DNA of 64,000 nucleotides from Acidovorax sp. T1. Lineage in GTDB: Bacteria; Pseudomonadota; Gammaproteobacteria; Burkholderiales; Burkholderiaceae_C. Positions within the stretch are counted from its first letter, which is position 1, and every line of letters starts with the position of its first letter. Made by a program: the position numbers and the translations under genes. The notes below the pieces were generated by a model. It saw only the letters and a program-made list of their open reading frames with translations, did no database searches and was not told where the DNA came from. The DNA lies in the NCBI RefSeq assembly GCF_002176815.1, contig NZ_CP021648.1, positions 496,001 to 560,000 on the forward strand. Reading direction: 5' to 3'. Shown here piece by piece: positions 27,576-54,784 of this stretch.

Positions 27576-28562
27576 ATGCACTTGCCGTTCCCGAATTCCG
27601 ATGTCGCTACCGCGCGCGCGCCCCTGGTTGCCGTGACCGGCGCGACCGGCTTCATCGGCCGGCATCTCATCGCCGCGCTGGTGCAGGCGGGCTGGCGGGT
27701 GCGGCTGCTGCTGCGGCGCGAACCGTCCGGCGCCGAATGGCGCCAGTCGACGCCCGAAGTCGTGGCCGGCTCGCTCGACAACGAGGCCGCAGTGGCGCGT
27801 CTCGTGGAGGGCGTCGATGCGGTGATCCATCTGGCCGGACTCATCAAGGCGGCACGGCGTGCCGATTTCTTTGCGGTGAACGAGCAGGGTGTCGCGCGGA
27901 TCGCGCGGGCGACGAAGCAACTGTCGCCCGACGCGCATTTCCTGCTGGTCTCCAGCCTGGCCGCGCGCGAACCGCTGCTTTCCGACTACGCCGCCAGCAA
28001 GCGTGCCGGCGAGGCTGCGGCACTCGACGCGATGGGCGCGCGCGCCACCGTGCTGCGCCCACCGGCTGTCTACGGCCCGGGGGACCGCGAAACGCTGCGC
28101 TTCTTCCAGGTTGCCCGCTGGCCGCGCGTGCCCCTGCTCGGCGGGCCGGACGCGCGCGCCGCGCTGATCCACGTGCGCGACGTGGCCCGGCTGATCGTCA
28201 TGCTCGTCGCGTCGACGCCGCAGGGCCAGGTGCTGGCGGCGGCGGATGGCCAGCCAGCGGGCTATCGCTGGGACGAACTGCTCGGTGCCGCGGCGCGGGC
28301 GGTCGGCAACCCGACGCCGCGCTTCCTGCAGGCGCCGCAAGGGCTGCTGCGTGGCATCGCATGGGTCGGCGATGTGGCGCGCCTCGGCGGCTCGGCGGCC
28401 ATGCTCAATTCGCAGAAGCTGCGCGAGCTGCGCCATGCGGATTGGGGCGTTTCGCCGGCCGAACTCGCGCGGCCGGAGGGCTGGTCGCCGCAGTTCGACA
28501 TCGACACCGGCTTCGCCGATGCGGTCGCCTGGTACCGGTCGGCCGGCTGGTTGCCGGGGTGA
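27576..28562 (+). CDS. NAD(P)-dependent epimerase/dehydratase-type oxidoreductase; candidate ceramide-pathway reductase
   Basis: This 328-residue extended-SDR protein has the Rossmann motif VTGATGFIGRHL at the N-terminus, followed by AVIHLAG and a YAASK active-site motif (SDYAASKRAGE). The start at 27576 is chosen because the Rossmann strand follows 16 residues later. Bacterial sphingolipid loci encode an SDR of this type (CerR) that reduces the 3-keto intermediate. This gene lies at the edge of such a locus, so that role is plausible, but many other substrates are possible. Its stop overlaps the next start (GTGA). Confidence 0.7.
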   Translation: MHLPFPNSDVATARAPLVAVTGATGFIGRHLIAALVQAGWRVRLLLRREPSGAEWRQSTPEVVAGSLDNEAAVARLVEGVDAVIHLAGLIKAARRADFFAVNEQGVARIARATKQLSPDAHFLLVSSLAAREPLLSDYAASKRAGEAAALDAMGARATVLRPPAVYGPGDRETLRFFQVARWPRVPLLGGPDARAALIHVRDVARLIVMLVASTPQGQVLAAADGQPAGYRWDELLGAAARAVGNPTPRFLQAPQGLLRGIAWVGDVARLGGSAAMLNSQKLRELRHADWGVSPAELARPEGWSPQFDIDTGFADAVAWYRSAGWLPG

Positions 28563-29641
28563 CGGTGACATCGTCCGATTCCGGCGCAGTCCCGGTCTGG
28601 GTGCTGCTCGGCGCGCGCCATGGCGACAACCAGCAACTGCTGGCCATCGCCGATGCCTTGGGCGTGCCGTACCGCACCGTGCCCTTGCGCTTCAACACCG
28701 CTGCGGGGCTGCCGCCGGTTCTGCTGGGCGCCTCGCGGCTGAGTTGGCGCAGCGAAGATGCGGCAGTGCTGCAGCCGCCCTGGCCGCGCGTGGTGCTGGC
28801 GGCCGGGCGCAAGAGCGTGCCGGCGGCGCGGTGGATCCGGCAGCGGTCGGGCGGGCGCACGCAGCTGGTCCACGTCAACCGGCCGTGGGCGCCGCTGTCG
28901 TGGTTCGACCTGATCGTGACGACGCCGCAGTACGCGGTGCCCAAGCGCGTCAACGTGCTGAGCCATCGCCTGCCCTTCATGCAGCCGCCGTCCGCGAGCG
29001 AGGTGCTCCTGCCGTCCGCATGGCAGGCGCAGGCGGCCCGCATGCCGCGGCCCTGGACGCTGGTGATGGTCGGTGGCGACAGCCGGCCCTTCGTGCTCGA
29101 CGACGCGGCAGCCGTTGGCCTGGCGCGCCTCGTGAATGCACAGGTGCGAGCGCAAGGTGGCAGTGCCTGGGTGCTCGGCAGCCCGCGGACGCCAGCCGCT
29201 GCAATCGATGTGCTGGCCCAGTGCCTGGACGTGCCTGCGCATGTCGTCCGCTGGGGCGAGGGCGAGAACCCCTACGCCGCCCTGCGCCAGCGCGCCGACC
29301 GCATCATCGTCACGACCGACAGCGCGTCGATGCTGACCGAGGCGCTGCTCACCGGACGGCCGGTCGCGCCCTTCGCATTGCCACGGCAACCGGATTGGCG
29401 CTGGCGCCTGGCGACGGCCTGGCGCGCCGCCGCGGCACGGCGGCCAGGGTCGCTGGTGGCGCGCAGCTTCGATGCCCTGCAGGACCTCGGATTGCTCTCG
29501 TCGCTGCGCGACCTGGGCTTGCTGCACGCTGCGCTGGACGCCGCCGGTGCGTTCGACGGCGGCGGGCAGGTGCTCGCGTTGGCACGGCAGGAGCGCGAGG
29601 CCACGCTGGCGCGCATCCACGCACTGATCGATCGGCCCTGA
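28559..29641 (+). CDS. ELM1/GtrOC1-like protein (DUF1022 type)
   Basis: This 360-residue protein of the mitochondrial-fission-ELM1-like family is glycosyltransferase-like in fold. The N-terminal VLLGARHGDNQQLLAIADAL, the later VVLAAGRKSVPAARW and the C-terminal RIIVTTDSASMLTEALLTGRP are characteristic. The GTG start overlaps the preceding SDR stop by four bases, indicating co-translation. Bacterial members usually lie near envelope-sugar genes, but no reaction has been established. It converges with the next gene. Confidence 0.75.
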   Translation: MTVTSSDSGAVPVWVLLGARHGDNQQLLAIADALGVPYRTVPLRFNTAAGLPPVLLGASRLSWRSEDAAVLQPPWPRVVLAAGRKSVPAARWIRQRSGGRTQLVHVNRPWAPLSWFDLIVTTPQYAVPKRVNVLSHRLPFMQPPSASEVLLPSAWQAQAARMPRPWTLVMVGGDSRPFVLDDAAAVGLARLVNAQVRAQGGSAWVLGSPRTPAAAIDVLAQCLDVPAHVVRWGEGENPYAALRQRADRIIVTTDSASMLTEALLTGRPVAPFALPRQPDWRWRLATAWRAAAARRPGSLVARSFDALQDLGLLSSLRDLGLLHAALDAAGAFDGGGQVLALARQEREATLARIHALIDRP

Positions 29642-29669
29642 TCGGCTGGATCGGGCAGGGGGGGCCTGC

Positions 29670-30554
29670 TCAGGCCGTGGCGCGCGAGGCGCGGGCCACG
29701 CAATCCAGCGCATCGCTGCGCACATGGCCGCGCGCGATCTCGGCGTCGACCAGGGCGCGGTCGATCGCGCCGTTGTCCAGGCATTCGCCCAGCATCCGGA
29801 AGAACAGCTTTTCCTGCGCCGGATCGGGGTGCCGGCGGTAGCGCCCGGCACCGCGCCCCGTCAGCTTGCGCAGCCAGATGCCGGCGCGCGAGGTGAGCGT
29901 GGTGCCGCGCGGCGTGAAATCCGAGGGCAGGCCGGTCTTCCACGGCTGTGTGCGGCGATGGGTGTTGTGCAGCAGCTTGGTCTGGGGCGTGAGCCGGTCG
30001 AAGTCGTTCCACTCGGGCTCCAGTGCCGCGACGCTGCTGGGCGGCTCGAGCAGCAGCCACATCCAGTCTCGGTAATCACGCTCGCCGCGAAAGGTGCGCT
30101 CGAAGTCCGCTTCCCACTGCCAGTGCTTGAGGCGCGCGCAGTCCATCAGCATCACGCTCGACGCGTAGTGCAGCGGGCGGCGGAAATCGCCGTCCATCTG
30201 CCGCGCCATCACAGCAGCGCCGCCCATGTTGCGCTCGAGCAGCGCGTTGATGTCGCCGAGCGCGAAGATGTCGGGGTCGATCAGCACCGCGCGACCGGCA
30301 TAGCCCATCTGCTCGGGCACGGCGAAGCGCAGCGGCGTGAACGACTGCAGGTCGTCGTTGCGCCACGGCACCTGCTGGCCTTCGCGCAGGTAGCGGCGAC
30401 CCTCGAAGCGTTCGAAGGCCGGGAAGTCCGTCGTCTGGAGGATGCGCACGTCGAAGCGCTCGGGCGCGGCGCTGCGGCTGCGCAACGCGTGCTGCGCCAC
30501 CAGGGCGCCGACGATCTGCTTGGGGTTGGTGTGGATGAAGACGGCGTTGCGCAT
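29670..30554 (-). CDS. glycosyltransferase-like protein (GT8-type fold suspected)
   Basis: This 294-residue protein has FIHTNPKQIVGALVAQHAL at the N-terminus and LIDPDIFALGDI, a DxD-like motif typical of GT-A glycosyltransferases. Later segments include SSVMLMDCARLKHW and TKLLHNTHRR. This resembles GT8-like proteins that handle nucleotide sugars. The donor and acceptor are unknown; glycosylation of a lipid is possible given the neighbours. It is divergently arranged from the next gene across about 190 bp that should hold both promoters. Confidence 0.6.
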   Translation of the reverse strand: MRNAVFIHTNPKQIVGALVAQHALRSRSAAPERFDVRILQTTDFPAFERFEGRRYLREGQQVPWRNDDLQSFTPLRFAVPEQMGYAGRAVLIDPDIFALGDINALLERNMGGAAVMARQMDGDFRRPLHYASSVMLMDCARLKHWQWEADFERTFRGERDYRDWMWLLLEPPSSVAALEPEWNDFDRLTPQTKLLHNTHRRTQPWKTGLPSDFTPRGTTLTSRAGIWLRKLTGRGAGRYRRHPDPAQEKLFFRMLGECLDNGAIDRALVDAEIARGHVRSDALDCVARASRATA

Positions 30555-30741
30555 GCCGTATTTTCACCTCTGGCACGACCCTAGCCGAGAACGATCCATC
30601 TCGGGTCACCCGAGCCGACTCGACCGCCGGGATACACTGGCGCCGCATGAAGGTAGTACATCTCCTACACGAGCCACATTTTCCGCAATCAATCCGAATG
30701 GCTGTCGACGTCCGAGTCGGTGCTGCATGGGGGAGTTCAGC

Positions 30742-31647
30742 ATGCATTTGCTGATGACCGGTAAGGGCGCCAGCGGCAGTTGGCAAATCCGGGGCGTTCA
30801 ACTGGGGCAGACATTGCGGGCAGCCGTGGTCCCGAACGCCAAAGATCTTGCACCCTACAACTTGGCAGTGCTCGTGAAGCGGCAGACAACCGATTTGCTG
30901 GAGAGATTCCATCAGTCCAAGGTCCCGCTGATCTGGGATGTGGTCGATGCATGGCCTCAGCCCATTGGAAACGCATGGCAGAAAGACCGGTGCTTGGAGT
31001 GGCTGGCCGGCGAAGTGAAGACGATCCGGCCTGCGGGGATCGTCGCGGCGACACGAGCGATGGCTCGGGACTGCGAGGGCTTTGGCGTGCCGGTGCTGGC
31101 GCTACCGCACCACGCACGGCCGGGCCTGCGGCAGAACCCGATCCGGCCGCTGAAAGTGCTGGGGTATGAAGGCGGGGAGAAGTACCTGGGACGCTGGCTG
31201 CCGATCATCAAACGTCAGTGCTCAGCACGCGGATTGCGGTTCGTCATCAATCCCACAGAGGTGGCGGACGTGGACGTCTTGGTCGCGCTGCGTGACTGCG
31301 ATGGCTATGCCCCAAGGAATTGGAAGAGCAATGTCAAGCTGGCCAACGCACAGGGAAGCGGGACGCCAGTGATCTGCAATCGCGAGGCGGGGTATCTTGA
31401 GACGGCTTGCGGGGCTGAACAGTGGGCCGACGACGAAGCTGAATTCGCCGCGGCACTGGATGCGTTGGAGTCCACCGAGGCGCGGCGATCAACTGCGCAA
31501 GTCTTACGCGCTGCTGCTCCCAGCATCGATAGCGTCACCGCTACGTACCTTCAATGGCTGCGGTCGGAGTTCCAAATTTCCAAGGTACCATCGATAGCCG
31601 TTGCGACGACGGCCAAGCGACGATGGGGTATTTGGGGCGCGTCGTGA
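30742..31647 (+). CDS. putative GT-B type glycosyltransferase
   Basis: This 301-residue protein starts at ATG 30742 with GGGGGAG upstream. LLMTGKGASGSWQIRGVQLG and VPLIWDVVDAWPQP resemble the first Rossmann domain of GT-B enzymes. The second domain contains KVLGYEGGEKYLGRWLPIIK and the donor-site-like NVKLANAQGSGTPVICN followed by an acidic patch. It is shorter than typical GT4 enzymes. No acceptor is readable. It ends 4 bp before the convergent stop of the acyltransferase-type gene at 31652. Confidence 0.6.
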   Translation: MHLLMTGKGASGSWQIRGVQLGQTLRAAVVPNAKDLAPYNLAVLVKRQTTDLLERFHQSKVPLIWDVVDAWPQPIGNAWQKDRCLEWLAGEVKTIRPAGIVAATRAMARDCEGFGVPVLALPHHARPGLRQNPIRPLKVLGYEGGEKYLGRWLPIIKRQCSARGLRFVINPTEVADVDVLVALRDCDGYAPRNWKSNVKLANAQGSGTPVICNREAGYLETACGAEQWADDEAEFAAALDALESTEARRSTAQVLRAAAPSIDSVTATYLQWLRSEFQISKVPSIAVATTAKRRWGIWGAS

Positions 31648-31651
31648 GCGC

Positions 31652-32833
31652 TCAACGCCGCGCACTGGCCAGCGCGGCGATGATCTGCCCGATGTCGTCG
31701 TCGCTGTGCGCCGCGCTGAGGCTGATGCGCACGAGGCTCAGGCCGGCGGGCGTGGCAGGCGGGATCATCAGGTTGGTGTAGATGCCGCTGTCCAGCAGCG
31801 ACTGCCACAGGGCCTGTGCTTCGGCGCGTTCGGTGAAGACCAAGGCCACGACCGGGCCGGGCGTCGTGGTGCCCAGCCGGTAGCCGAGCTTCGTTGCTTC
31901 GGCGTAGAGGCGTTCGGCGTGCCGCCACAGTCGTTCGCGCAACGCATGGCCATCCAGCATCTGGCGCAGCGCTTCGCGCGTGGCCGCGATCGAGGGCGGC
32001 GACGACGAGGCCGTGAAGATGTACGGTCGGCTCACCATCCGAACGTATTCGAGTTCCGCGTGCCGGCCGATGCAGAAGCCGCCGACGCCGCCCAGGCTCT
32101 TGGAGAAGGTGCCGACGATGAAGTCCACGTCGTCGAGCACGCCCAGTTGCTCTGCCAGGCCGAGGCCGCGTTCGCCGAACACGCCGAAGGAATGCGCTTC
32201 GTCGACCAGCAGCCAGGCGCCATAGCGCCGTTTGATCTCGGCGATTTCCTGCAACGGCGCGCGGTCGCCCAGCGTGCTGTAGACGCCTTCGACCACGATC
32301 AGCGCGCGATGCGCATCGTCGCCCAGCCGCGCCAGGCGGCGGTCGAGGTTTTCGGGGTCGTTGTGCCGGAAGCGGATGGTCGTCGCATTGCTCAAACGGC
32401 AGCCGTCATGGATGCTGGCATGGCTGTCGGCATCCACCAGCAGGTAGTCGCCGGTGTCGGCCAGCGCGGAGATCACGCCGAGGTTGGTCTGGTAGCCGGT
32501 GGAAAAAACGATGCAGGACGGCCAGCCGACGGCGTCTGCCAGTTCACGTTCGAGGGCGCGGTGGCCGGCGTAGTTGCCGCTCGCCATGCGCGAACCGGTG
32601 GAGCCGGTGCCCTGGGTCTCGATGGCCGCGATGGCGGCGGCGCGGCAGGCGGCGTCGTAGGTCAGGCCGAGGTAGTTGTTGGTCCCCGCGAGCACCATGC
32701 GGCGCCCCCCGATGGTCGCTGAGGTGGCTGAATGGATCTCGTCCATCGGCGTCGCGATCGGTGCCACGCCACCCATCGCGTCCAAGCTCGCCTGGAGCTG
32801 GCGCTGCGCGCCGAACTTGTTGAGAAGACTCAC
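31652..32833 (-). CDS. spt: serine palmitoyltransferase-type alpha-oxoamine synthase
   Basis: This PLP enzyme of 393 residues belongs to the alpha-oxoamine synthase family, which condenses an amino acid with an acyl thioester. GTGSTGSRMASGNYAGH, the His in DADSHASIHDG, and the PLP-lysine motif VGTFSKSLGGVGGF are present. TFSKSLGG followed by VGG favours serine palmitoyltransferase over BioF. The immediately preceding gene is a dedicated acyl carrier protein (GTGA overlap), and an acyl-AMP ligase precedes that, as in bacterial sphingolipid operons. I infer the product is 3-ketosphinganine; CqsA- or KBL-like alternatives are less likely. Confidence 0.8.
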   Translation of the reverse strand: MSLLNKFGAQRQLQASLDAMGGVAPIATPMDEIHSATSATIGGRRMVLAGTNNYLGLTYDAACRAAAIAAIETQGTGSTGSRMASGNYAGHRALERELADAVGWPSCIVFSTGYQTNLGVISALADTGDYLLVDADSHASIHDGCRLSNATTIRFRHNDPENLDRRLARLGDDAHRALIVVEGVYSTLGDRAPLQEIAEIKRRYGAWLLVDEAHSFGVFGERGLGLAEQLGVLDDVDFIVGTFSKSLGGVGGFCIGRHAELEYVRMVSRPYIFTASSSPPSIAATREALRQMLDGHALRERLWRHAERLYAEATKLGYRLGTTTPGPVVALVFTERAEAQALWQSLLDSGIYTNLMIPPATPAGLSLVRISLSAAHSDDDIGQIIAALASARR

Positions 32834-33087
32834 GCCGCACCGCCGGTCAGTTGGGCGATGCCGGCGCGCAGCCCGTTGATGGTGTGCGCCTGGGCCAGCG
32901 TCTCCACCGGGATCGACAGGTCCAGACGGTCCTCGATCTCCATGACGAGGTCCATCACGCCGATCGAGTCGAGGTCTGCCTCCTGCATCAGGTCGGCATT
33001 GCCGCCCAGGCTCGCCGTGCCGGGACGGATCGCGTCGAGTGCTTCGCGGATGGCGCTTTCGATGGTTGCCAGATTCAATTCGGTCAC
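32830..33087 (-). CDS. dedicated acyl carrier protein
   Basis: This 85-residue ACP has the phosphopantetheine-attachment motif DLDSIGVMDLVMEIED. Its predicted four-helix length and acidic composition are typical. It starts with GTG and its stop overlaps the next gene's start. Its position between an acyl-AMP ligase and the serine palmitoyltransferase suggests it delivers the acyl group for long-chain-base formation. Activation would be by a phosphopantetheinyl transferase such as that at 38492. Confidence 0.88.
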   Translation of the reverse strand: MTELNLATIESAIREALDAIRPGTASLGGNADLMQEADLDSIGVMDLVMEIEDRLDLSIPVETLAQAHTINGLRAGIAQLTGGAA

Positions 33088-33097
33088 GGGTGAGGGC

Positions 33098-34921
33098 TCA
33101 ATCAGGGGTCGTCAGGGCAATGTCGCGGCCGATGCTCGCGTGCTGGGTCTGCACGCGCGCATCGTCCTTGACGAAGCCGACCTGCGGCTCCTCGCCGCAA
33201 CGCTTGAGGAAGTCGCTGCGCGCCATGCTGCGCGACAGCTTGCCCGACGAGGTGCGCGGCAGGGTGTGCGGCGGCACCAGTTCGATCAGGCAATGGATGC
33301 CGAACTCGGCGTTGATGGCCTGCTTCAGGCGCACCGACAGCGAGGCCAGCTTGATCGGATCGGTTTCCCGGCACTGCACGACCAGCACTGCGGTTTCGTT
33401 CTCGTCCTCGTCCACGACCGTGAAGGCGGAGGCATCGGTCGGCCGGACTTCGGGCTGCTGCTCGGCCAGGTATTCGAGGTCCTGCGGCCAGATGTTGCGG
33501 CCCTTGATGATCATCAGGTCCTTGGCGCGGCCGGTGACGAACAGCGAACCGTCGGCGAAGTAGCCCAGGTCGCCGGTGTTGAGCCAGCCATCGTCCGACA
33601 GCACCTCTTGCGTGGCCTCGGGGTTGCCGAAGTAGCCCGACATCACGCTGGGCCCGCGCAGATAGATGGCGCCGCACCGGCGTTCGGGTAGCGCGTTGCC
33701 CCGGTCGCCCCGTACTTCGACCTCGAAGCCCGGCAGTGGCCGGCCGCAGTCGATGAAGGCCTTGCCCTTGACCGCGGCTTCACCCTCGATCGGCGGACGT
33801 GCCTCGCCCGTGCGGGACAACCTGTCGATGTCGATGAGGTCGCTGCGTGAGCCGCTGCCCACGGGCGCGAAGCTCACGCCCAGCGCACATTCCGCCATGC
33901 CGTAGCTGGGCAGGAAGGCGCGTTCGTCGAAGCCGGCCGGTGCCAGGATCTCCGACACCTGGCGCAGGGAATCAGGGTGGATCATCTCGGCGCCCACGCC
34001 GGCGATGCGCCAGGAGGACAGATCGAGCGCCTCGATGTCCGCCGGACGCAGGCGGCGTGCGCACAGCGTGTAGCCGAACGGCGGGCTGTAAGAGATGGTG
34101 CAGCGGTTGCGCGAGATCAGCTTGAGCCAGAGGCGCGGGCGCATCGCGAACTCGCGCGTCGGCAGGTAGTCGACCGAGCGCTGCGTGGCCATGCACCCCA
34201 GCACGATGCCCACCAGCCCCATGTCGTGGTAGTGCGGCAGCCAGGAGCAGAAGCGATCGTCCGCGGTGAGCGCAAAGCCATGGTTGAAGATGGCGCCCAG
34301 GTTGGCCATGACCGCGGACTGTGTGATCATCGTGCCGCGCGGGAAGCGGGTGCTGCCCGAGGTGTACTGCAGATAGGCCAGGTCGGTCGGCGCGGGCGGT
34401 GGCGGCAGCTTTTCCTGGGCGTCCAGTGCCAGGAAGTCGTCCAGCGTGCCGGACAGCGCGAGCGGCAAACCTTCGCTGGCTTCGTTCAGGAAGCCGACGA
34501 ATTCGGACGGTGCGAAGGCAGCGACCGCCTGGCAGTCGCGCATCAGCTGGCGCAGGTGGCGAACGTACGCCTCGCGGCCGCCCAGGTGCACGGCGGCCGG
34601 CAGCGGCACGGGCACCAGCCCGGCGTACTGGCACGCATAGAACATGACGGCGAAGTCCGGGTGCGTTTGCGCAACCAGGGCCAGCCGCTGACCGCGGCCG
34701 AGCGGCGCCAGGTGGCGCGACATCTCCAGGGCGCGGCGACGCAGTTCACGGTACGGCAGAACGGCCGAGAGCTTGTCGCGGCCATCGTAGTAATTGAACC
34801 CGGTCTCGCCGGTCGCGGCATAGTCCAGGGCTTCCGTCAGGGTGGAGAAGAGCGCGCTGCGCAGCGGAATGCCACTGGCCGTCGGCGTCGGTGTCGTACC
34901 GAGGAGCATTGCTTGCGTCAC
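33098..34921 (-). CDS. fatty acyl-AMP ligase / acyl-ACP synthetase (1)
   Basis: This 607-residue adenylate-forming enzyme activates a fatty acid as acyl-AMP and loads it, probably on the adjacent ACP. Motif A3 reads YTSGSTRFPRGTM, with Arg where Lys is usual. Later motifs are LPSYGMAECALG, GWLNTGDLGYF and the C-terminal catalytic Lys in TSSGKLSRS. The GTG start at 34921 has GGGAGGG seven bases upstream; ATG 34909 is an alternative. It leads an operon with the ACP and serine palmitoyltransferase-type gene. Confidence 0.88.
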   Translation of the reverse strand: MTQAMLLGTTPTPTASGIPLRSALFSTLTEALDYAATGETGFNYYDGRDKLSAVLPYRELRRRALEMSRHLAPLGRGQRLALVAQTHPDFAVMFYACQYAGLVPVPLPAAVHLGGREAYVRHLRQLMRDCQAVAAFAPSEFVGFLNEASEGLPLALSGTLDDFLALDAQEKLPPPPAPTDLAYLQYTSGSTRFPRGTMITQSAVMANLGAIFNHGFALTADDRFCSWLPHYHDMGLVGIVLGCMATQRSVDYLPTREFAMRPRLWLKLISRNRCTISYSPPFGYTLCARRLRPADIEALDLSSWRIAGVGAEMIHPDSLRQVSEILAPAGFDERAFLPSYGMAECALGVSFAPVGSGSRSDLIDIDRLSRTGEARPPIEGEAAVKGKAFIDCGRPLPGFEVEVRGDRGNALPERRCGAIYLRGPSVMSGYFGNPEATQEVLSDDGWLNTGDLGYFADGSLFVTGRAKDLMIIKGRNIWPQDLEYLAEQQPEVRPTDASAFTVVDEDENETAVLVVQCRETDPIKLASLSVRLKQAINAEFGIHCLIELVPPHTLPRTSSGKLSRSMARSDFLKRCGEEPQVGFVKDDARVQTQHASIGRDIALTTPD

Positions 34922-35138
34922 CTTGCACCCTCCCGCTTCCCGTGCTCCTGAACTCTCGGGAGAACGCTAGAACACAACATTTTGGGCATGCACTGCTTCA
35001 CTCTATAACTTGACTGAACTGTACGATACTGTACGGTTTTGGCTACCCGCAGGCCGCGCACCCCATGGAAAAAACTCGACCGCCGCGGGATTGTAAAATC
35101 CGGAAACGTCAAACTGTCATAAATGCTATGCACAGTGA
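34922..35138 (-). promoter_or_regulatory. promoter region of the acyl-AMP ligase-ACP-SPT operon with a palindrome
   Basis: This 217-bp intergenic region is AT-richer than its surroundings. At 35018-35037 it contains the imperfect palindrome ACTGTAC-GATACT-GTACGGT, which is also a direct repeat of CTGTACG. On the minus strand TATAGA lies shortly downstream and could serve as a -10 element. The palindrome resembles operators of TetR-type regulators, but no such gene is present in the window. Confidence 0.45.
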
Positions 35139-37100: not shown

Positions 37101-37114
37101 GAAGGAGGTGCCGC

Positions 37115-38428: not shown

Positions 38429-38491
38429 AATCCAAAATTACCCTTGGTGGTGAGCCTTCGATTATGTCATGTGCGCGCCAATGCTGCGCCC

Positions 38492-45405: not shown

Positions 45406-45424
45406 GGGACGATGCCTCAGTCTC

Positions 45425-45868: not shown

Positions 45869-45930
45869 CGCAGTCGTCCAGGGTCGTGTGTTGCTTGTGC
45901 TCAGCGGGCGACATTCTCGCCTGAGTCGCT

Positions 45931-46824: not shown

Positions 46825-46905
46825 CGATAATCGCCCGCTGCTTTCTGTCTGGACACTCGCTTCGATCATGCCAAAACTTCTTACCCCGCGTGCCGGGCTG
46901 CCCAA

Positions 46906-48039: not shown

Positions 48040-48968
48040 GCGAGGACCTGCGCGCGCTGATCGACGACGAGCTGCGGCGCGCCGTGTCGCCCGCCGTCGT
48101 CACGCTGGCCGAGCGGCTGGCCGCGCGCGCGCAAGGCGGGGCGGCCGCCGTGCTGTTCTACGGCTCGGCCCTGCGCGACAGCGCGCTCGACGGCGTGCTC
48201 GACTTCTACGTGCTGGTCGACCGCGTCGGCGACTGGCCGGGCTCGTGGCTCGCGGCCTGTGCCAACCGCGTGCTGCCGCCGAACGTCGGCTACCTGGAGG
48301 AGTCGGTCGATGGCCGCAGCCTGCGCGCCAAGTACGCGGTGATGACGGTCGCGCAGTTCCGGCGGGCGATGTCGGTGCAGCGCATCGACACCACCCTGTG
48401 GGCCCGCTTCTCGCAGCCCTGCGCCTGCATTCATGCGCGCAGCGAGGCCGACCGGCTCACGATGCGCGATGCGGTGTGCGACGCGGTGGTGGCCGCCGCG
48501 CATTGGGCGGCGATGCTCGGGCCGCTGCGCGCCGAGCCGGTCGCCTTCTGGCGCGCCCTCTATGCGCGCACCTACGCGGCGGAGTTGCGGGTCGAGCGCA
48601 GCACGCGCGGCGCAGACCTGCTCGCGCACGACGGGCCGCGCTATGCGCGCCTGCTGCCGCTGGCCTGGGAAGAGGGCGGGCTGGCCTTCACCACGGCGCC
48701 GGGCGAAGTGGCACCCGTGCTCGCGCCGGACGAGCGCACCACCGCCGAGCACCGCTGGCGCAGGCGTCGCCGGCTGGGGCCGGTGCTGAACCTGCTGCGG
48801 CTGCTGAAGGCGGCGCTGACCTTCGACAACGCCACCGACTATGTCGCGTGGAAGGTCGAGCGCCACAGCGGCTACAGGATCGAGCCCACCCCCTTCCAGC
48901 GGCGGCATCCGCTGCTGGCGGCGCCGGGCATCTACTGGCGCTTGCGCCGCCGCGGCGTGCTGCGCTGA
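48036..48968 (+). CDS. nucleotidyltransferase-fold protein of the lipid cluster
   Basis: This 310-residue protein starts with a GTG at 48036 overlapping the preceding stop (GTGA). LFYGSALRDSALDGVLDFYV is a GSxxR...D-type nucleotidyltransferase pattern. The remainder is helical with many Trp and Arg residues (VERHSGYRIEPTPFQRRHP). It has no membrane segments. Coupling to a CDP-alcohol phosphatidyltransferase suggests it makes or transfers an activated phosphate group for that enzyme. The exact reaction cannot be read. Confidence 0.6.
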   Translation: MSEDLRALIDDELRRAVSPAVVTLAERLAARAQGGAAAVLFYGSALRDSALDGVLDFYVLVDRVGDWPGSWLAACANRVLPPNVGYLEESVDGRSLRAKYAVMTVAQFRRAMSVQRIDTTLWARFSQPCACIHARSEADRLTMRDAVCDAVVAAAHWAAMLGPLRAEPVAFWRALYARTYAAELRVERSTRGADLLAHDGPRYARLLPLAWEEGGLAFTTAPGEVAPVLAPDERTTAEHRWRRRRRLGPVLNLLRLLKAALTFDNATDYVAWKVERHSGYRIEPTPFQRRHPLLAAPGIYWRLRRRGVLR

Positions 48969-49007
48969 TGCGCCGAGAATGGGGGGATCTTTCCCGCCTT
49001 CTCGCCC

Positions 49008-49775
49008 ATGCCCTTCTTTCCCCTGAGTTTTTCCCGGCATCGCCTCTGGCTGTGCACGGCGGCCCTGCTCGCATCCACTGCGTTCGCCGCCGAACCGAGT
49101 GCGCCGCCGCCGCGCGACGCCGAGGCCAAGGTCTACCCGACCCGCATCGCGCGCTCCTTCACCGTGCTCTACCAGATGCAGCGCGGCGGCATCCGGGGCA
49201 GCGGCGAGTTCGTCTGGAAACGAACGGCCGATGCCTACGAGGCGCACCTCAAGGGCACGGTCGCCGGCCTGGCGCTCATCAACTGGGGCAGCCAGGGCGG
49301 CTTCGACGCCGCGGGCGTGGCCCCCGGCAGCTACGTGGAGAAACGCCTGGGCAAGTCCGCGCGGGAGGCGACTTTCGTGCGCAGCGAATCGAAAATCGAT
49401 TTCTCGGGCTCCGCCCCGGACATCCCGCTGGTGCCGGGCGCCCAGGACCGCGTGAGCTGGCTGGTACAACTGCAGGCCATCCTGACGGCGGACCCGGCCA
49501 AGGCGAAGGCCGGCGGGCGGGTCGTGATGCCCGTGGTGGGCGTGCGCGGCCGAGCCGAAACCTGGATCTTCGAAGCCTCGGGTGCCGAGACGGTCAAGAC
49601 CCCCGCAGGCAACCTGCGGACCCAGAAGCTGACACGCGTGCTGCGCCAGCCCGACGACACCCGGGCGGAGGTCTGGGTCGAGCCGGCGCGGCAGTTCCTG
49701 CCGGTGCGCATCCGCCTCACGCTGCCGCCCTTCGACGCGCCGCTGGACATGACGCTGGCCGACGTGAGCGGATAG
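49008..49775 (+). CDS. DUF3108 domain protein, secreted
   Basis: This 255-residue protein has a signal peptide (LWLCTAALLASTAFAA). The mature part contains the DUF3108 pattern: TVLYQMQRGGIRGSGEFVW, GGFDAAGVAPGSYVEKR, and KTPAGNLRTQKLTRVLR near the end. This family is found in Burkholderiales as a periplasmic or outer-membrane-associated beta-rich protein without established role. It sits between lipid genes on the same strand, so a role in envelope lipid trafficking is possible. Confidence 0.8.
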   Translation: MPFFPLSFSRHRLWLCTAALLASTAFAAEPSAPPPRDAEAKVYPTRIARSFTVLYQMQRGGIRGSGEFVWKRTADAYEAHLKGTVAGLALINWGSQGGFDAAGVAPGSYVEKRLGKSAREATFVRSESKIDFSGSAPDIPLVPGAQDRVSWLVQLQAILTADPAKAKAGGRVVMPVVGVRGRAETWIFEASGAETVKTPAGNLRTQKLTRVLRQPDDTRAEVWVEPARQFLPVRIRLTLPPFDAPLDMTLADVSG

Positions 49776-49871
49776 CCGTTTTCCTGCAGAACGCTGCGGA
49801 ACTGGAGCCCCCGCCGGGGGCTTCCCGCAACCGGTATGCTTTAGCCCCCTCCCGATTCCTTCCGCAGAGCC

Positions 49872-50987
49872 GTGACTGCCACCTCCACCCCCCTTGAACG
49901 GGCTCCCGCCGCCTCAGCGGCTGCACGAAATTTCGCATGGCGGGGGCAGGCGCGCGCGCTGATCGACGACCTGTTCGAACGCTCACCGGCCATCTACTGG
50001 ACCGACTTCCTGCTCAGCACGGGCATCGGCTGGGCGTTGACGGCCGTCTATTTCTTGGCGACGCCCTGGAGCGCCGTGCAGATCGCCGCGTTCGTGGTCG
50101 CCAGCCTGCTGTTCTTCCGCTCGGGCACCTTCATCCACGAGATCATCCACATGCCGAACCAGCAGATGGTGTGGTTCAAGCGGGCGTGGAACCTGTTGCT
50201 GGGCATCCCTTTCCTGATGCCGTGGATCATGTACAGCAACCACATCGAGCACCACAACCACCGCCGCTTCGGCACCCCGTCGGACGGCGAATACCTGCCG
50301 CTCGGTTCGTCGCCAGTGAAGGAAACCCTCAAGTACCTGGCGCAGGCGCCGCTGCTGCCGCTCTTCATGGTGGTGCGCTTCGGCGTGCTGGGGCCGCTGT
50401 CGTGGCTGCACGGCGGGCTGCGCCACTGGGTGCTGACGCGCGCGTCGGCGGCGGTGTCCAACCCGTACTACAGCGAGCGCTTCCCCAAGCGCTTCGAGAA
50501 GCACCTGAAGATCGTCGAGGCGCTGTGCTTCGCGTACATCGTGGCGCTCGCCGTGCTGGTCTGGCGCGACGTCATCAGCTTCAAGCACGTGGCCATGGGC
50601 TACCTGCTGCTGGCCTTCACGCTGGGGCTGAACTGGGTGCGCAACCTGGCGGCGCACCGGTACGTCAACGACGGCACGCCGATGGACCTGGCGGGCCAGG
50701 TCGAGGAATCCATCAACATCACCGGCCAGACCTGGCTGACCATCGCCTTCTTCCCGGTGGGCCTGCGCTACCACGCGCTGCACCATCTCTTCCCGGCGCT
50801 GCCGTACCACAACATGGACGAAGCGCATCGCCGCCTGATGCAGAACCTGCCGGCGGATGCGTCGTACCGCATCACCAACCGCGACAGCTTCTTCGCCGCC
50901 GTGCGCGAGCTCTGGCAGTCGGCCCGGCAGACGCCGCACGAGCAATCGGCGATGCGTGCGTGGCTGCCGCGGTCCGGCCGATCTTGA
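49872..50987 (+). CDS. membrane fatty acid desaturase / hydroxylase family
   Basis: This 371-residue di-iron membrane enzyme has His boxes FIHEIIHMPN (HxxxH), NHIEHHNHRRF (HxxHH) and YHALHHLFP (HxxHH) in the expected order, and membrane helices around them. The start is a GTG at 49872. The family includes desaturases, hydroxylases and ketolases acting on lipids. In this context it could modify the acyl chain or long-chain base. The next gene starts at or shortly after its stop. Confidence 0.88.
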   Translation: MTATSTPLERAPAASAAARNFAWRGQARALIDDLFERSPAIYWTDFLLSTGIGWALTAVYFLATPWSAVQIAAFVVASLLFFRSGTFIHEIIHMPNQQMVWFKRAWNLLLGIPFLMPWIMYSNHIEHHNHRRFGTPSDGEYLPLGSSPVKETLKYLAQAPLLPLFMVVRFGVLGPLSWLHGGLRHWVLTRASAAVSNPYYSERFPKRFEKHLKIVEALCFAYIVALAVLVWRDVISFKHVAMGYLLLAFTLGLNWVRNLAAHRYVNDGTPMDLAGQVEESINITGQTWLTIAFFPVGLRYHALHHLFPALPYHNMDEAHRRLMQNLPADASYRITNRDSFFAAVRELWQSARQTPHEQSAMRAWLPRSGRS

Positions 50988-52006
50988 TCGCCAGCGTACC
51001 CGGAGGGACGCCTCTCTCCGAAGTGATCGAGTCGCTGGCGAACGCCGCGCTGCCGCCGTGCCTCATCGTCAACCCGCTGAGCTTTCGCGCCTCGCGCGGC
51101 CTGGCCGAGCAGGCGCAGGCCGTGGCGAAGGCGCAGGGCGCGGAGGTGGTCGTGGTCGACGGGCCCGCATCGCTCACCGCCGCGGTCGAGGCCATCCTGG
51201 CCCGTCGCCAGCGCCACGTGATGGTGCTGGCCGGCGACGGGACCGTGCGCGCGGTCATCGACCAGCTGGCCAGCCTGCCCACGGGGGCCTGGATGCCGGA
51301 CCTGCTCGTGCTGCCCGGCGGCCGCACCAACCTGACGGCCGCCGACCTGACACCGGGTATCGACGCGATGCGCCTGCTCGAGCGCGGCCTGGCGGCCGTC
51401 GCGGACAAGCGCTGGGATGCTGCCGTCGTCGAGCGCGCCACGCTGTGCATCGAGCAGGGGCCGGCACCGGCACGCCGCGGCCTGTGGGTGGGCGCGGCGC
51501 TGATCGACGGCGTGATCCGCCGCACGCACGCCCACCGCATCGGTGGTGACGGCGCGCTGCGCACCGGCCACCTGAGCACGCTGTCGTCGCTGCTGCGCCT
51601 GGTGGTTCTCGCGTTGCGCGGTCGGTCGGGGCTGTCGTGTCCGACATTGCGCATCGATGCCGGTCCGCTGGGCCGCTTCGAGGGCAAGGTGAACCTGCTG
51701 CTGGCGACGACGCTGCAGCACCGCCAGGGTTTGTTCGACCCCTACGCCACGCGCGCCGATGGCGGCATGCGCCTGACGGCCGTGTCGCGCCATGCCAGCC
51801 GCTTCTACCGCTCGCTGCCGCGCCTGCTCACGGGGCGTTTCTCGCGCGCGATGGACACCGCCCACGGCTTCCTCAGCGGCGGCTGTGCGCAGGTCGAGAT
51901 CACGGGCCTCGGCGGCTATTCGCTCGACGGCGAGGCCTACGACACCGACCCGGCGCGCCCGGTCGTGATCCGTCGCGGCCCCTCTCTTCGGTTCTTTGCC
52001 GCATGA
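50984..52006 (+). CDS. diacylglycerol-kinase-family lipid kinase; candidate ceramide kinase
   Basis: This 327-340-residue protein has the kinase catalytic-domain loop VLAGDGTVRAV and LIVNPLSFRASRGLAEQA at the N-terminus, with the lipid-kinase C-terminal beta-sandwich (YSLDGEAYDTDPARPVVIRR). The start is uncertain: TTG 50984 overlaps the desaturase stop, and GTG 51023 lies downstream of CGGAGGG. Bacterial sphingolipid loci encode a lipid kinase of this family that phosphorylates ceramide. I infer the same here, but sphingosine, diacylglycerol or other lipids remain possible. Confidence 0.72.
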   Translation: MIASVPGGTPLSEVIESLANAALPPCLIVNPLSFRASRGLAEQAQAVAKAQGAEVVVVDGPASLTAAVEAILARRQRHVMVLAGDGTVRAVIDQLASLPTGAWMPDLLVLPGGRTNLTAADLTPGIDAMRLLERGLAAVADKRWDAAVVERATLCIEQGPAPARRGLWVGAALIDGVIRRTHAHRIGGDGALRTGHLSTLSSLLRLVVLALRGRSGLSCPTLRIDAGPLGRFEGKVNLLLATTLQHRQGLFDPYATRADGGMRLTAVSRHASRFYRSLPRLLTGRFSRAMDTAHGFLSGGCAQVEITGLGGYSLDGEAYDTDPARPVVIRRGPSLRFFAA

Positions 52007-53775
52007 GCGGTGAGCCCATCGACGCCGTGACCGCCGCCCGCGCCCGCGGCGCGGTGCCCATGATCGCCGCCTTCGTGCGCGCCTATCCCGGTCGCAGCCT
52101 GGCCGCGCTCGCCGCGGTCTTCGTCGCGGGGCTGCTCGACGGCCTCGGCATGTCGATGCTGCTGTCGATGCTCACGCTCACGACCGCCGACGATCCGGGC
52201 CGCAAGCCCTCCATGCCCGAGCAGGTCGCCACGCGCATCGCCGATGTCCTCGGCCTGCAGCCGACCGCGCCGGTCATGCTCACGCTGGCGATCGCGCTGA
52301 TCGCGCTGCGTGCCGGACTCACGCTGGTGGCCAACAAGCAGGTCGGCTACACGGTGGCGCACATCGCCACCGACCTGCGCCTGGCGCTGATCCGCGCGGT
52401 GATGGGCGCGCGCTGGAGCCATTACCTGCAGCAGTCGGTCGGCCGGCTGTCGAACGCGGTCGCCACCGAGGCGCAGCGTGCCTCCGAAGCCTTCCAGTAC
52501 AGCGCCGAGATGGCGGCGATGCTGCTCAATTCGCTGATCTACATGGGCATCGCGCTGGCGATCTCGTGGCAGGCGGGCGTGGCCACGGCGATTGCCGGCG
52601 GCCTGCTGCTGACGCTGCTGCACACGCTCATCCGCAGCTCGCGCCGCGCGGGTCAGCACCAGACGCAGCTCTTGACCTCGCTGCTGTCGGCCATCGGCGC
52701 GCAGCTGGCCGCGGCCAAGCCGCTCAAGGCGATGGCGCGCGAAGACCACGTCGATGCGCTGCTGTCGGACCAGATGAAGCAGTTGCGCCGCGCGCTGCGC
52801 CGCCAGGTGGTCAGCCGCGAAGCGCTCAGCGCGCTGCAGGACCCGCTGCTCGCCATCATGGTCGGCACCGGCTTCTTCCTGAGCCTGGTGGTGCTGAAGA
52901 TGCCGCTGGCGTCGGTGCTGGTCATGCTCTTCCTGCTGGCGCGGGTGGTGAGCTATCTCTCGAAGACGCAGCGCGCGTACCAGCAGATCGTCGTGCGCGA
53001 GAGCGCCTATTGGGCCCTCATCGACGGCATCGACGCCGCGCATGCGCAGGCCGAGCCGAAGGGCGGCGACCGCACGGCGACGCTGTCCGACGGCATCGCG
53101 TTCGACGGCGTGCGCTTCCGCCACGGCGACGGCCGCCTGGTGCTCGAGGACGCGTCCTTCACCATCCACGCGCGCGAGCTGACCGTTGTCGTCGGCCCCT
53201 CGGGCGCCGGCAAGACCACGATGCTCGACCTGGTGGTCGGCCTGCTGCAGCCGGAGGCCGGCAGCGTGCGCGTCGATGGCGTGCCGATGCCCGAGCTGGC
53301 CCTGCGCCCCTGGCGCCGGCAGATCGGCTACGTGCCGCAGGACTCGGTGCTGGTCAACGAATCCATCGCCTACAACCTCGCGCTGGGCGAGCAGGACCTG
53401 AGTGAGGCCGACCTGCGCGATGCCCTGCGTGCCGCCGATGCGCTCGACTTCGTCGACGCCATGCCCGAGGGCCTGCAGACGCGGGTGGGCGAGGGCGGAT
53501 CGCGCCTGTCCGGCGGCCAGCGCCAACGCCTGGCCATCGCGCGGGCGTTGGTGCACAAGCCCAGCCTGCTGGTGCTCGACGAAGCCACCAGCAGCCTCGA
53601 CGCCGAGGCCCAGGCCGTGGTGATCGACACCGTGCGGCGCCTCAAGGGCTACCTGACCATCCTGGCCGTGGCGCATCAGGGCCTGCTGATCGACGCGGCC
53701 GACCGGATCTACCGGCTGGCCGATGCAGAGGTGAGTCTGGTGCGCGGTCCGCAGGAGCCAGAGGGGGACGCATGA
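52003..53775 (+). CDS. MsbA-like ABC exporter (fused membrane and ATPase domains)
   Basis: This 590-residue half-transporter has an N-terminal six-helix membrane domain (GLLDGLGMSMLLSML, MVGTGFFLSLVVL) followed by an ATPase with Walker A VVGPSGAGKTTM, signature RLSGGQRQRLAI, Walker B LLVLDEATSSLD and H-loop AVAHQG. This is the lipid or polysaccharide exporter type. The ATG overlaps the kinase stop (ATGA). Coupling to a kinase and an acyltransferase implies flipping of a finished lipid across the inner membrane. Confidence 0.9.
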   Translation: MSGEPIDAVTAARARGAVPMIAAFVRAYPGRSLAALAAVFVAGLLDGLGMSMLLSMLTLTTADDPGRKPSMPEQVATRIADVLGLQPTAPVMLTLAIALIALRAGLTLVANKQVGYTVAHIATDLRLALIRAVMGARWSHYLQQSVGRLSNAVATEAQRASEAFQYSAEMAAMLLNSLIYMGIALAISWQAGVATAIAGGLLLTLLHTLIRSSRRAGQHQTQLLTSLLSAIGAQLAAAKPLKAMAREDHVDALLSDQMKQLRRALRRQVVSREALSALQDPLLAIMVGTGFFLSLVVLKMPLASVLVMLFLLARVVSYLSKTQRAYQQIVVRESAYWALIDGIDAAHAQAEPKGGDRTATLSDGIAFDGVRFRHGDGRLVLEDASFTIHARELTVVVGPSGAGKTTMLDLVVGLLQPEAGSVRVDGVPMPELALRPWRRQIGYVPQDSVLVNESIAYNLALGEQDLSEADLRDALRAADALDFVDAMPEGLQTRVGEGGSRLSGGQRQRLAIARALVHKPSLLVLDEATSSLDAEAQAVVIDTVRRLKGYLTILAVAHQGLLIDAADRIYRLADAEVSLVRGPQEPEGDA

Positions 53776-53840
53776 GCGACGCGCCGGGCCGCCCCAAGAA
53801 AGCTCGCACCGCAGTGCGCAGCACGAAGGTACTCCTGTGA
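53772..53840 (+). other. 22-codon micro-ORF linking the ABC exporter and acyltransferase genes
   Basis: An ATG that overlaps the ABC exporter stop (ATGA) begins a 22-residue peptide, MSDAPGRPKKARTAVRSTKV followed by LL, which ends in a TGA overlapping the next GTG start (GTGA). The first bases TGAGCGACGCG are repeated at that GTG start. It could be a coupling device or the relic of a duplicated 5' end. Confidence 0.4.
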
Positions 53841-54784
53841 GCGACGCGGAACGCCCGGTCGACCTCGGCCGCCGCCTGCGGCGCGCCCGCCGTCGCGCGC
53901 TCTTCCTCGGCCTGCGCACGGTGCTGCGCGTGGCTGGCTTCCAGCGCGTGCGCCTGCTCGGCCAACTGACGGGCGCGCTGCAGTACCGGCTGGCCTGGCG
54001 CCAGCGCCGGCGCATCGCGCACGACATGGCCGTGGCGCTCGGCCGCCCGCCCGGCGACCCGTCGATCGCGCCGCTGCTGCGCGAGGCCTACCGCGTGAAC
54101 AACACTGCCGTGCTCGAGATCCTGGCGATGTTCGACCAGCGCCAGGACGAGGACATGCTCATCGCGCGCTGCGAGGTCGACGGCCTCGCGCACCTGCGCA
54201 CCGCCATGGCCGGCGGGCGCGGCGCGATCCTGCTGGCCACGCACATGGGCAATGCGGCGCTGCTTACCATCAAGCTGGCCCGCGCCGGCTGGGGCGTGAG
54301 CGTGGTCTACCGCGAGGCGCGGATGATGTCGGCGGGCCTGCTGCAGAACGGGCTCGAGCAGTACGGCATCGAAGGCATCCTCGCGAACACCGGTCTGCGC
54401 GCCTACGCCCAGATGGTCTCGGCGTTGAAGCAGGGCCGCATCGTCTTCGTCATGATGGACCAGGGCGTGCAGCAGGCCGAGACCGGGCTGATGCAGCGCT
54501 TCCTGGGCAAGGACGCCGCCATGCCGGCCGGCCCCGCGCAACTCGCCCGCGCGGCGCGTGCGCCGCTGCTGCCGGTGACCACGACGGCGGCCGAGCCGGT
54601 CTGGCGCTTCGAGATCCAGCCGCCGGTGCTGTTGGGTCAGGGGTCACTGGCGTCGGATGTCGAGCGCCTGGTTCAGCTCACCGAACAGCAGGTGCGCCAG
54701 CATCCGCAGCTGTGGAGCTGGCATCACCGCCGCTGGCGCAAGCTGCCGCTGGCCACCACGCCGCCGCCCGTCGCGTCTTCCTGA
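53837..54784 (+). CDS. LpxL/HtrB-like lipid acyltransferase with altered active-site motif
   Basis: This 315-residue protein of the lipid A lauroyl-acyltransferase family has a GTG start at 53837. The catalytic box normally reads HxxxxD/E; here it is LATHMGNAALL, so the position expected to be Glu/Asp is Ala. Downstream FVMMDQGVQQAETG is the typical DQ block. The basic N-terminus (RRLRRARRRALFLGL) could associate with the membrane. It is the last gene of the plus-strand lipid operon. Activity is uncertain because of the missing acid residue. Confidence 0.78.
   Translation: MSDAERPVDLGRRLRRARRRALFLGLRTVLRVAGFQRVRLLGQLTGALQYRLAWRQRRRIAHDMAVALGRPPGDPSIAPLLREAYRVNNTAVLEILAMFDQRQDEDMLIARCEVDGLAHLRTAMAGGRGAILLATHMGNAALLTIKLARAGWGVSVVYREARMMSAGLLQNGLEQYGIEGILANTGLRAYAQMVSALKQGRIVFVMMDQGVQQAETGLMQRFLGKDAAMPAGPAQLARAARAPLLPVTTTAAEPVWRFEIQPPVLLGQGSLASDVERLVQLTEQQVRQHPQLWSWHHRRWRKLPLATTPPPVASS

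Follow-up and report, generated by a model that had tools for sequence, protein, structure and literature searches.

A probable mobile variant of the Caulobacter ceramide phosphoglycerate locus in Acidovorax sp. T1

In Caulobacter, a region of 17 genes (CC_1168-CC_1152) is connected with ceramide (di)phosphoglycerate (CPG2). Five of the genes serve ceramide synthesis, six the formation of ceramide phosphoglycerate (CPG) and CPG2, three encode LptC2, LptF2, and LptG2, one encodes a potential flippase, and two are probably unrelated (PMC11324152). The start of the pathway, which depends on an acyl carrier protein (ACP), has already been described (PMC9386255). The CPG2 genes are needed for polymyxin sensitivity in Caulobacter (PMC11324152), and CPG2 partly supports life of the organism without lipopolysaccharide (PMC12275187). 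Related clusters are present in other proteobacteria, and horizontal transfer has been suggested for two gamma-proteobacteria (PMC11324152). Here we analyze a stretch of 64,000 nucleotides from Acidovorax sp. T1 (NZ_CP021648.1, positions 496,001 to 560,000; hereafter the window), which carries a sphingolipid-type locus bordered by IS1071 and an IS21 element; a near-identical copy lies on the IncP plasmid pDCB2 of Diaphorobacter sp. JS3051. We read it, with a probability of roughly 80%, as the Caulobacter CPG2 locus in a mobile, beta-proteobacterial form, extended by an acyl-supply and oxidation module and an extra headgroup transferase. The gene set is nearly complete, and its product would be a negatively charged phosphosphingolipid of the outer membrane.

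Fourteen genes of the window have counterparts in the Caulobacter locus, and much of the local order is kept (Table 1). The common set comprises AasR, CerR, AcpR, Spt, CpgC, a CpgB-type kinase, CpgA, the phosphoesterase, the HIT protein, LptF2, LptG2, CerS, CC_1153, and CpgD (PMC11324152, PMC12275187, PMC13228409). In particular, the genes that mark a CPG2 locus (cpgA, cpgC, cpgD, CC_1153, and CC_1158) all have counterparts, at 45 to 63% identity. The order HIT-LptF2-LptG2-CerS-CC_1153-(opposite strand)-CpgD is conserved, with a second CDP-alcohol transferase inserted before CerS. The reference for most identities is the locus of Caulobacter vibrioides T5M6 (L067), and that for CpgD is the Caulobacter locus L046. 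CC gene numbers are assigned from gene order and the descriptions in PMC11324152; it is uncertain whether the HIT gene corresponds to one of the 17 and, if so, to which.

Several features set the window apart from the Caulobacter locus: an ACP-fused second fatty acyl-AMP ligase (FAAL-ACP), a cytochrome P450, a 4'-phosphopantetheinyl transferase (PPTase), the second CDP-alcohol transferase, a desaturase/hydroxylase, an LpxL-like protein, putative glycosyltransferases, and mobile-element borders. It has an ABC exporter, whereas Caulobacter has a PF01943-type flippase. Conversely, no counterpart was found in the window for the Caulobacter LptC2 gene or for the gene that follows it in L067. According to PMC11324152, Azotobacter vinelandii and Pseudomonas luteola have contiguous CPG2 clusters that are compact, probably transferred, and devoid of CC_1166-1168; the window resembles them in these respects. 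For these clusters no counterpart of CC_1158 is reported, and FAAL-ACP, P450, and PPTase are not named in the section of that paper that deals with them; the window has all of these. The plasmid pPNP1 of Pseudomonas sp. JS425 (NZ_CP073662.1) shares with the window a gene set of Spt, ACP, acyl-AMP ligase, SDR protein, kinase, LptF/G, nucleotidyltransferase, CDP-alcohol transferase, phosphoesterase, and ABC exporter. It differs in that its Spt is 53% identical, its CerS match extends over 81% and is located at an IS5 gene, it has its own gene of the aspartyl/asparaginyl beta-hydroxylase family, and it shows no FAAL-ACP at E ≤ 1e-150. The pPNP1 gene set is near IS5, a recombinase, and a Tn3 transposase. 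By these comparisons, the window holds a variant of the CPG2-type locus; its product and mechanism are inferred.

An earlier annotation of the same DNA, made from its letters alone (the sequence-only reading), had proposed a large system of sphingolipid synthesis, decoration, and export at 27576-54784. All features that it named are present there, and the two ends coincide with those of the SDR and LpxL-like genes. Its proposal of a CDP-alcohol-derived headgroup followed by export to the envelope would fit the Caulobacter CPG2 genes. It took the excess over the known five-gene core as the novelty. That excess is not new, as the 17-gene Caulobacter region has been published (PMC11324152); several tailoring genes and the mobility are new, so the reading claimed too much for size and too little for these. 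FAAL-ACP, P450, PPTase, two nucleotidyltransferases, the metallophosphoesterase, the HIT protein, the desaturase/hydroxylase, the LpxL-like protein, and two putative glycosyltransferases come in addition to the genes it listed. Three unusual traits lie outside that reading: the module of FAAL-ACP, P450, and PPTase, the distinctness of the second transferase, and the mobility.

Table 1. Features of the locus and its borders. Positions are those of the window.
Feature	Position	Strand	Family, motif, or other evidence	Identity to Caulobacter
IS1071, Tn3-family element	23414..26629	-	PF01526; transposase 23563-26478; 112-nt arms 93% complementary	
Shared block	26624..55930		three aligned pieces against G680 (another genus, same family) at 91, 94.5, and 97% DNA identity	
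CerR ortholog (CC_1164), SDR/epimerase family	27576..28562	+	PF01370; counterpart L067:8716-9666	49%
ELM1 family putative glycosyltransferase	28601..29641	+	PF06258, E 2.4e-49; pDCB2 annotation ELM1/GtrOC1 family putative glycosyltransferase	
Putative GT8-like glycosyltransferase, weak assignment	29670..30554	-	PF01501, E 0.034, below cut-off; precomputed on 1 of 120 listed homologs	
Spt, serine palmitoyltransferase	31652..32833	-	NF047599, 581.7 bits (cut-off 500); VGTFSKSLGG	51%
AcpR, dedicated ACP	32830..33087	-	PF00550; DSI serine motif	44%
AasR, acyl-ACP synthetase (fatty acyl-AMP ligase)	33098..34921	-	NF006624, 763.7 bits (cut-off 600)	46% (gene at AasR position)
FAAL-ACP, ACP C-terminal	35139..37100	-	PF00501 and PF00550; NF006624, 381.4 bits, below cut-off 600	
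Cytochrome P450 without reductase domain	37115..38428	-	PF00067, E 1.6e-78; heme Cys, AGHET, and ExxR motifs	
PPTase	38492..39148	+	PF01648; beside the FAAL-ACP gene in loci having that gene	
CpgD ortholog (CC_1152), CTP:phosphoglycerate cytidylyltransferase candidate	39212..40003	+	PF00483	62-63% (L046)
CC_1153 ortholog, MobA-like nucleotidyltransferase	39989..40810	-	PF12804	46%
CerS ortholog (CC_1154), N-acyltransferase	40812..41939	-	full-length match	~55% (56% in L067)
Second CDP-alcohol transferase, clade apart from CpgA	41946..43154	-	PF01066; catalytic motif; tree; distribution	
LptG2-like permease	43151..44218	-	PF03739; TIGR04408, 230.1 bits, just under cut-off 240	33%
LptF2-like permease	44215..45405	-	PF03739; syntenic with Caulobacter gene	40%
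HIT-domain protein	45425..45868	-	PF01230	59%
Metallophosphoesterase, CC_1158-type	45931..46824	-	PF00149, also in Caulobacter counterpart; pDCB2 annotation	45% (L067:14829-15716)
CpgA ortholog (CC_1159), CDP-alcohol transferase	46906..48039	+	PF01066; tree	52% (gene at CpgA position)
CpgC ortholog (CC_1161), candidate nucleotidyltransferase	48036..48968	+	YGS ... DFY	45%
DUF3108 protein	49008..49775	+	PF11306	
Fatty-acid desaturase/hydroxylase family	49872..50987	+	PF00487; His boxes	
CpgB-type ceramide kinase candidate (CC_1160)	50960..52006	+	PF00781 (DAGK_cat); AGDGT motif	29%
ABC exporter, MsbA kind	52003..53775	+	PF00005 and PF00664	
LpxL/HtrB-like protein without the acid of HX4(D/E)	53837..54784	+	PF03279, E 2.8e-27	
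arsR, arsC, truncated arsB	54879..55964	+	PF12840, PF01451; arsB 61 aa against 428 aa in G680	
IS21 transposase and helper, after truncated arsB	56049..58356	+	PF22483, PF01695	

One alternative concerns the alpha-oxoamine synthase. The enzyme shares a superfamily with BioF and CqsA, and the bioF model gives it 333.9 bits; if it were BioF- or CqsA-like, the locus would not serve sphingolipids. However, this score is below the bioF cut-off of 426.45, the autoinducer-synthase model NF005526 gives only 215.6 bits against a cut-off of 428, and the Spt cut-off is exceeded, so the enzyme groups with Spt, as the sequence-only reading had expected. In addition, orthologs of the ACP, AasR, CerR, and CerS lie in the same block. 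Both assignments are rejected, and that alternative is refuted at the sequence level and practically excluded. The ACP gene is positioned directly before spt with an AasR-type ligase close by, the arrangement of the rhodobacterial AasR-AcpR-Spt pathway. Spt is of the proteobacterial ACP-dependent type, for which use of acyl-ACP is predicted. Its nearest relatives among the named genomes are those of Variovorax sp. N23 (95%) and Ramlibacter sp. (93%), and the Spt of pDCB2 is 99.5% identical.

The CerS and CerR orthologs occupy positions corresponding to those of the Caulobacter strain, in which the CerR counterpart sits between aasR and acpR. The ceramide-synthase candidate of the sequence-only reading holds up, being alike over its length to the CerS of C. 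vibrioides and not grouping outside the bacterial ceramide synthases, but its GNAT label gains no Pfam support at E ≤ 0.001. At this limit the CerS ortholog has no Pfam family at all, nor has it an NCBIfam family; the only trace is a PUA match at E 0.08. Some distant CerS homologs are labelled GNAT in plasmid records. The best family E-values of the block proteins range from 6e-8 (a CDP-alcohol transferase, Pfam) to 1e-229 (an acyl-AMP ligase, NCBIfam). Judged by these E-values, the CerS identity, and the gene order common to distant genomes, the gene set is beyond what chance would be expected to assemble.

The headgroup genes follow the Caulobacter pattern. CpgD is a CTP:phosphoglycerate cytidylyltransferase (PMC12275187, PMC13228409), and the nearest PDB sequence to the window ortholog is CTP:phosphocholine cytidylyltransferase. 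The lipid kinase recognized earlier by its GDGT loop belongs to PF00781. An initial gene call at 46177-46830(+) is rejected, as its protein is antisense-like and the opposite strand encodes the metallophosphoesterase, in agreement with the pDCB2 annotation. Among 40 aligned CpgC homologs, Y42, G43, S44, and D56 are invariant, and F-Y mostly follow the D. We take the Y-G-S with the following D to resemble nucleotidyltransferases. CC_1161 has been described as carrying an InterPro domain suggestive of CDP-diacylglycerol (CDP-DAG) synthase, and may make an NDP-activated ceramide, to which a so-far unknown enzyme might then add glycerate or 2-phosphoglycerate (PMC11324152).

Both CDP-alcohol transferases reported by the sequence-only reading are confirmed, each having the full D..DG..AR..G..D..D motif. 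In the tree, the protein encoded at 46906-48039 groups with Caulobacter CpgA, while that encoded at 41946-43154 belongs to a distinct clade with full support, set on a long branch. Because of the long branches the depth of this clade is uncertain, a caution also given by the tree program. The second clade has 20 rows from about 15 genomes, with one protein included under two starts or two locus names; they derive from the window's family, from genomes titled Burkholderiales or its genera, and from one bin titled only Pseudomonadota. A search with the second transferase in 19 genomes with other Spt loci gives matches in 16 of them at E ≤ 0.001, all at 40% identity or less. Fourteen matches are strong (E ≤ 6e-40) and correspond to the CpgA-type genes of the respective genomes; three are weak. 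Both types are present in the genome of the window (G000), G367, G100, and G140, the second type at 67-69% in the latter two, where it was detected after tree building; neither type is found in G386 at E ≤ 1e-5. Therefore, the second clade looks like a Burkholderiales addition.

This transferase is a candidate enzyme for the unassigned condensation. In favor of that role, the first condensation might need an unknown enzyme (PMC11324152), and the gene has lptG2 and cerS as its immediate neighbors within the core operon. Alternatively, the enzyme may add a third phosphoglycerate or another CDP-activated alcohol and not form the first CPG bond, in line with its being an addition of Burkholderiales-type loci and with the formation of CPG and CPG2 by Caulobacter (PMC11324152), whose genome G731 has a single CpgA-type match. 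Because Caulobacter makes CPG without a second transferase, a role in a third unit or an alternative headgroup is at least as likely as the first condensation; taken by itself, it is quite possible and falls only somewhat short of an even chance.

The FAAL-ACP, P450, and PPTase genes form a module between aasR and cpgD. We surveyed 399 genomes of the family for Spt (E ≤ 1e-100), P450 (E ≤ 1e-120), and FAAL-ACP (E ≤ 1e-150), scoring the best 3-4 preliminary candidates per genome, and treated the three surveys as one genome set on the basis of identical genome labels; at such strict limits remoter relatives could escape. Spt is found in 11 of the 399 family genomes, FAAL-ACP in 10, and P450 in 8, and all FAAL-ACP and P450 genomes fall within the 11 with Spt, where both genes lie within a few kb of Spt. 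PPTase accompanies FAAL-ACP in all nine relatives, or ten of ten with the window. We also compiled 80 Spt loci from named genomes, covering at most 10 kb on either side of Spt; several contigs stop earlier, and L011, L014, and L018 begin right beside the ligase gene. FAAL-ACP (at least 60% identity) and P450 occur together in 14 of the 80. PPTase is present in 13 of the 14 FAAL-ACP loci, and the remaining one, L005, stops short of that place. One of the loci, L043, is from a metagenome bin titled Klebsiella pneumoniae and is much like the gamma-proteobacterial bins L040 and L044; the title looks mislabelled. The three genes were not found in the examined stretches of the Spt genomes G386, G100, and G140 (the latter two from another family), nor was PPTase in that of G107. 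The phosphopantetheine serine of FAAL-ACP is conserved in the 13 aligned rows shown, some of which are one protein twice.

A P450 of Acidovorax sp. JS42 is 99% identical to the window P450, whose best PDB sequence is a putative P450, 7wzl. The plant LUT5, human 4B1 and 3A4, and BM3 are among the best 60 of 501; these relatives (BM3 being a fatty-acid hydroxylase) are compatible with oxidation of a fatty acyl chain without showing it. The module may thus feed and oxidize the amide chain. It could also be a separate small natural-product or lipopeptide pathway inserted in the locus and unrelated to the sphingolipid: the three genes form a single insert, the pDCB2 annotation calls FAAL-ACP a non-ribosomal peptide synthetase, and peptide and polyketide synthetase domains occur among its PDB relatives. 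However, FAAL-ACP and P450 were not found without Spt among the 399 genomes at the limits used, and by Pfam the three proteins lack condensation, ketosynthase, and release domains. We consider such a separate pathway rather unlikely and favor a module that serves the ceramide.

Two LptF/LptG-like permeases are present at 43151-45405(-), as noted before. The MsbA-like exporter of the sequence-only reading is an ABC protein indeed, but only loosely MsbA-like, its score of 221 bits against the MsbA model being far below the cut-off of 602. The Caulobacter locus has a PF01943 flippase, which the ABC exporter probably replaces. The catalytic dyad of LpxL/HtrB is HX4(D/E). In the LpxL-like protein, the His is kept, but A, S, or V occupies the acid position in all nine aligned rows. 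Classic acyl transfer by this protein is therefore doubtful. The site is conserved as HMGN in the aligned rows (eight beta- and one gamma-proteobacterial). The desaturase/hydroxylase has no match at E ≤ 1e-5 in three alpha-proteobacterial genomes, one of them Caulobacter, and is thus only distantly, if at all, related to the hydroxylase that PMC11324152 names for Caulobacter. A relative of the DUF3108 protein is present only in G680 among the loci compared, and pDCB2 also has one; this protein may serve as a lipid carrier in the periplasm.

The ELM1 and GT8-like genes are neighbors, and their counterparts form one open reading frame (ORF) in L192 (G100:C20:14237-16453) and L193 (G140:C46:23823-26048), of 738 and 741 residues. 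Residues 91-214 of the L192 protein match the GT8-like protein at 33%, and residues 373-635 match the ELM1 protein at 45%; this fusion suggests that the two act jointly. In G100 the fused ORF is followed by two further glycosyltransferase-family genes, a methyltransferase-family gene, and one gene without a family. These arrangements, together with an ELM1/GtrOC1 gene in the Pseudomonas plasmid Spt locus, speak for a glycosylated phosphosphingolipid as the final product, with sugars added by the two proteins. On the other hand, the GT8 assignment is weak (the best E in a PDB search is 0.53), Pfam detects only the ELM1 half of the fused ORFs, and some related loci have no GT8-like match (G729, G610) or no ELM1 match (G442). 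A glycosylated product is a tentative proposal with the odds against it, and we retain the CPG2-type product.

The block is bordered on the left by IS1071, whose right end abuts the cluster. This element is 99.8-100% identical to copies in plasmid records, and most of those listed bear the IS1071 label. On the right it runs into arsenic-resistance genes cut short before the IS21 element. The block has a GC content of 0.693, against 0.604 in the left flank, and the copy in G680 lies within a region of 0.67-0.72 that contains an intact 428-aa arsB (ArsB, PF02040). Alignment to G680 was made over 75 kb, with pieces longer than 200 bases at E ≤ 1e-20; within this range no flanking piece aligns. 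The block stretch 30573-31604 does not align either, and the ORF at 30742-31647(+), which lies in it and has no Pfam match, is doubtful, yet it is annotated on pDCB2. Spt is present in one of 47 genomes of the genus.

Window positions 26970-56145 (29.2 kb) are 97.8% identical to a segment of pDCB2, which also lies beside an IS1071 copy (with an internal gap of about 200 bases) but is joined to it at a different point. On pDCB2, the block (L188, NZ_CP065408.1, 28000-77623) is beside mercury-resistance genes too. The plasmid is typed as IncP, MOBP, and conjugative (PLSDB), and by this typing it would be able to transfer. A word search of the main text of the JS3051 paper gave no occurrence of pDCB2, sphingolipid, or lipid (PMC8406286). 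CpgA relatives (E ≤ 1e-20) are present in 16 of 72,556 plasmid records (13 Roseomonas, 2 Pseudomonas, and 1 Diaphorobacter), and all 16 are also in the lists for Spt (32) and CerS (38). A full-text literature search, judged by the titles of the papers it gave and with supplements and closed papers outside its range, yielded no report of a plasmid-borne sphingolipid cluster. A simple composite transposon formed by the IS3-type copies at 3018 and 58518, which are 95% alike over 300 nt, is rejected, as the second copy has its own GGT/GGT flanks. No matching 5-bp duplication was seen by eye around the IS1071 copy by the block, so that rearrangement is likelier than a clean insertion.

An island between insertion elements, present in one of 47 genomes of the genus and next to a cut arsB, might have been captured and then have fallen silent or decayed, with no lipid made in this host. 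However, the pathway genes keep open frames; from CerR to the LpxL-like protein, identity to the G680 proteins is 92-99%, apart from PPTase (83%) and ELM1 (88%); and the pDCB2 copy is annotated with whole genes. Decay or silence is improbable, and an intact pathway remains the favored reading.

On this reading, AasR would load a fatty acid on AcpR, and Spt would condense it with serine, a reaction known in Caulobacter for these families. CerS would N-acylate and CerR reduce the product to dihydroceramide; the two are orthologs of the Caulobacter enzymes, and the order of their steps is debated in the literature. FAAL-ACP, activated by PPTase, may hold a second fatty acid as acyl-ACP, which the P450 would hydroxylate and CerS would take as the amide chain. 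The kinase would form ceramide-1-phosphate, and the CpgC ortholog a CDP-ceramide-like species. The second CDP-alcohol transferase could join glycerate or phosphoglycerate to it, a step without a named enzyme in the literature. By orthology, CpgD would make CDP-glycerate, CpgA would add the outer phosphoglycerate, and the phosphoesterase would trim the product, the last two steps being proposals in the literature too. Finally, the ABC exporter may flip the lipid, and LptF2 and LptG2 may carry it towards the outer membrane.

Several points weigh against this reading. Every reaction of the pathway is assigned by homology. The kinase is only 29% identical to that of Caulobacter, and kinase and LpxL-like protein alike reach no NCBIfam cut-off; nor does the exporter among the 25 models shown. 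No LptC family match was obtained among the scanned block proteins. The CpgC ortholog has no Pfam family (E ≤ 5); Tam41 (PF09139) matches in none of three genomes (E ≤ 1), which does not support a Tam41/Mmp37 CDP-DAG synthase; and a PDB profile search gives nothing convincing, the best hits being an unrelated reductase (E 0.044) and a nucleotidyltransferase-domain protein (0.054). In Caulobacter-type genomes the second transferase has CpgA-type matches only, yet Caulobacter makes CPG; thus, it cannot be the general missing enzyme. G528 and G719 have FAAL-ACP loci without P450, indicating that P450 is not essential to the module, and FAAL-ACP matches in the other 66 of the 80 Spt loci reach at most 38%, with no P450 match there, within the sequence covered.

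Elsewhere in the window, insertion elements are dense at 1-7102, 18918-26490, and 56049-60125 (three IS21, two IS3-type, IS66, a DDE transposase, and IS1071). Positions 10102-17840 carry metal-efflux genes for an outer-membrane efflux protein, an HlyD/CusB-type protein, an AcrB-family pump, and a cation-efflux-family protein. The low-GC stretch at 61034-63952 (0.45-0.49) has tyrosine recombinase-like frames, one of three with a sub-cut-off Phage_integrase match (E 5e-5). No tRNA, and no RNA family at the gathering threshold, was found in the window.

The boldest form of the proposal is a self-contained pathway carried by conjugation that gives its host a new class of outer-membrane lipid, with ACP-bound supply and oxidation of the amide chain and a new transferase family making the first phosphoglycerate bond from CDP-ceramide; in this full form we think it rather unlikely. 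The locus offers candidates for the CPG-making enzyme and the flippase, and also for the supply and oxidation of the amide chain. If the pathway moves on an IncP plasmid, an outer-membrane lipid class would be a transferable trait.

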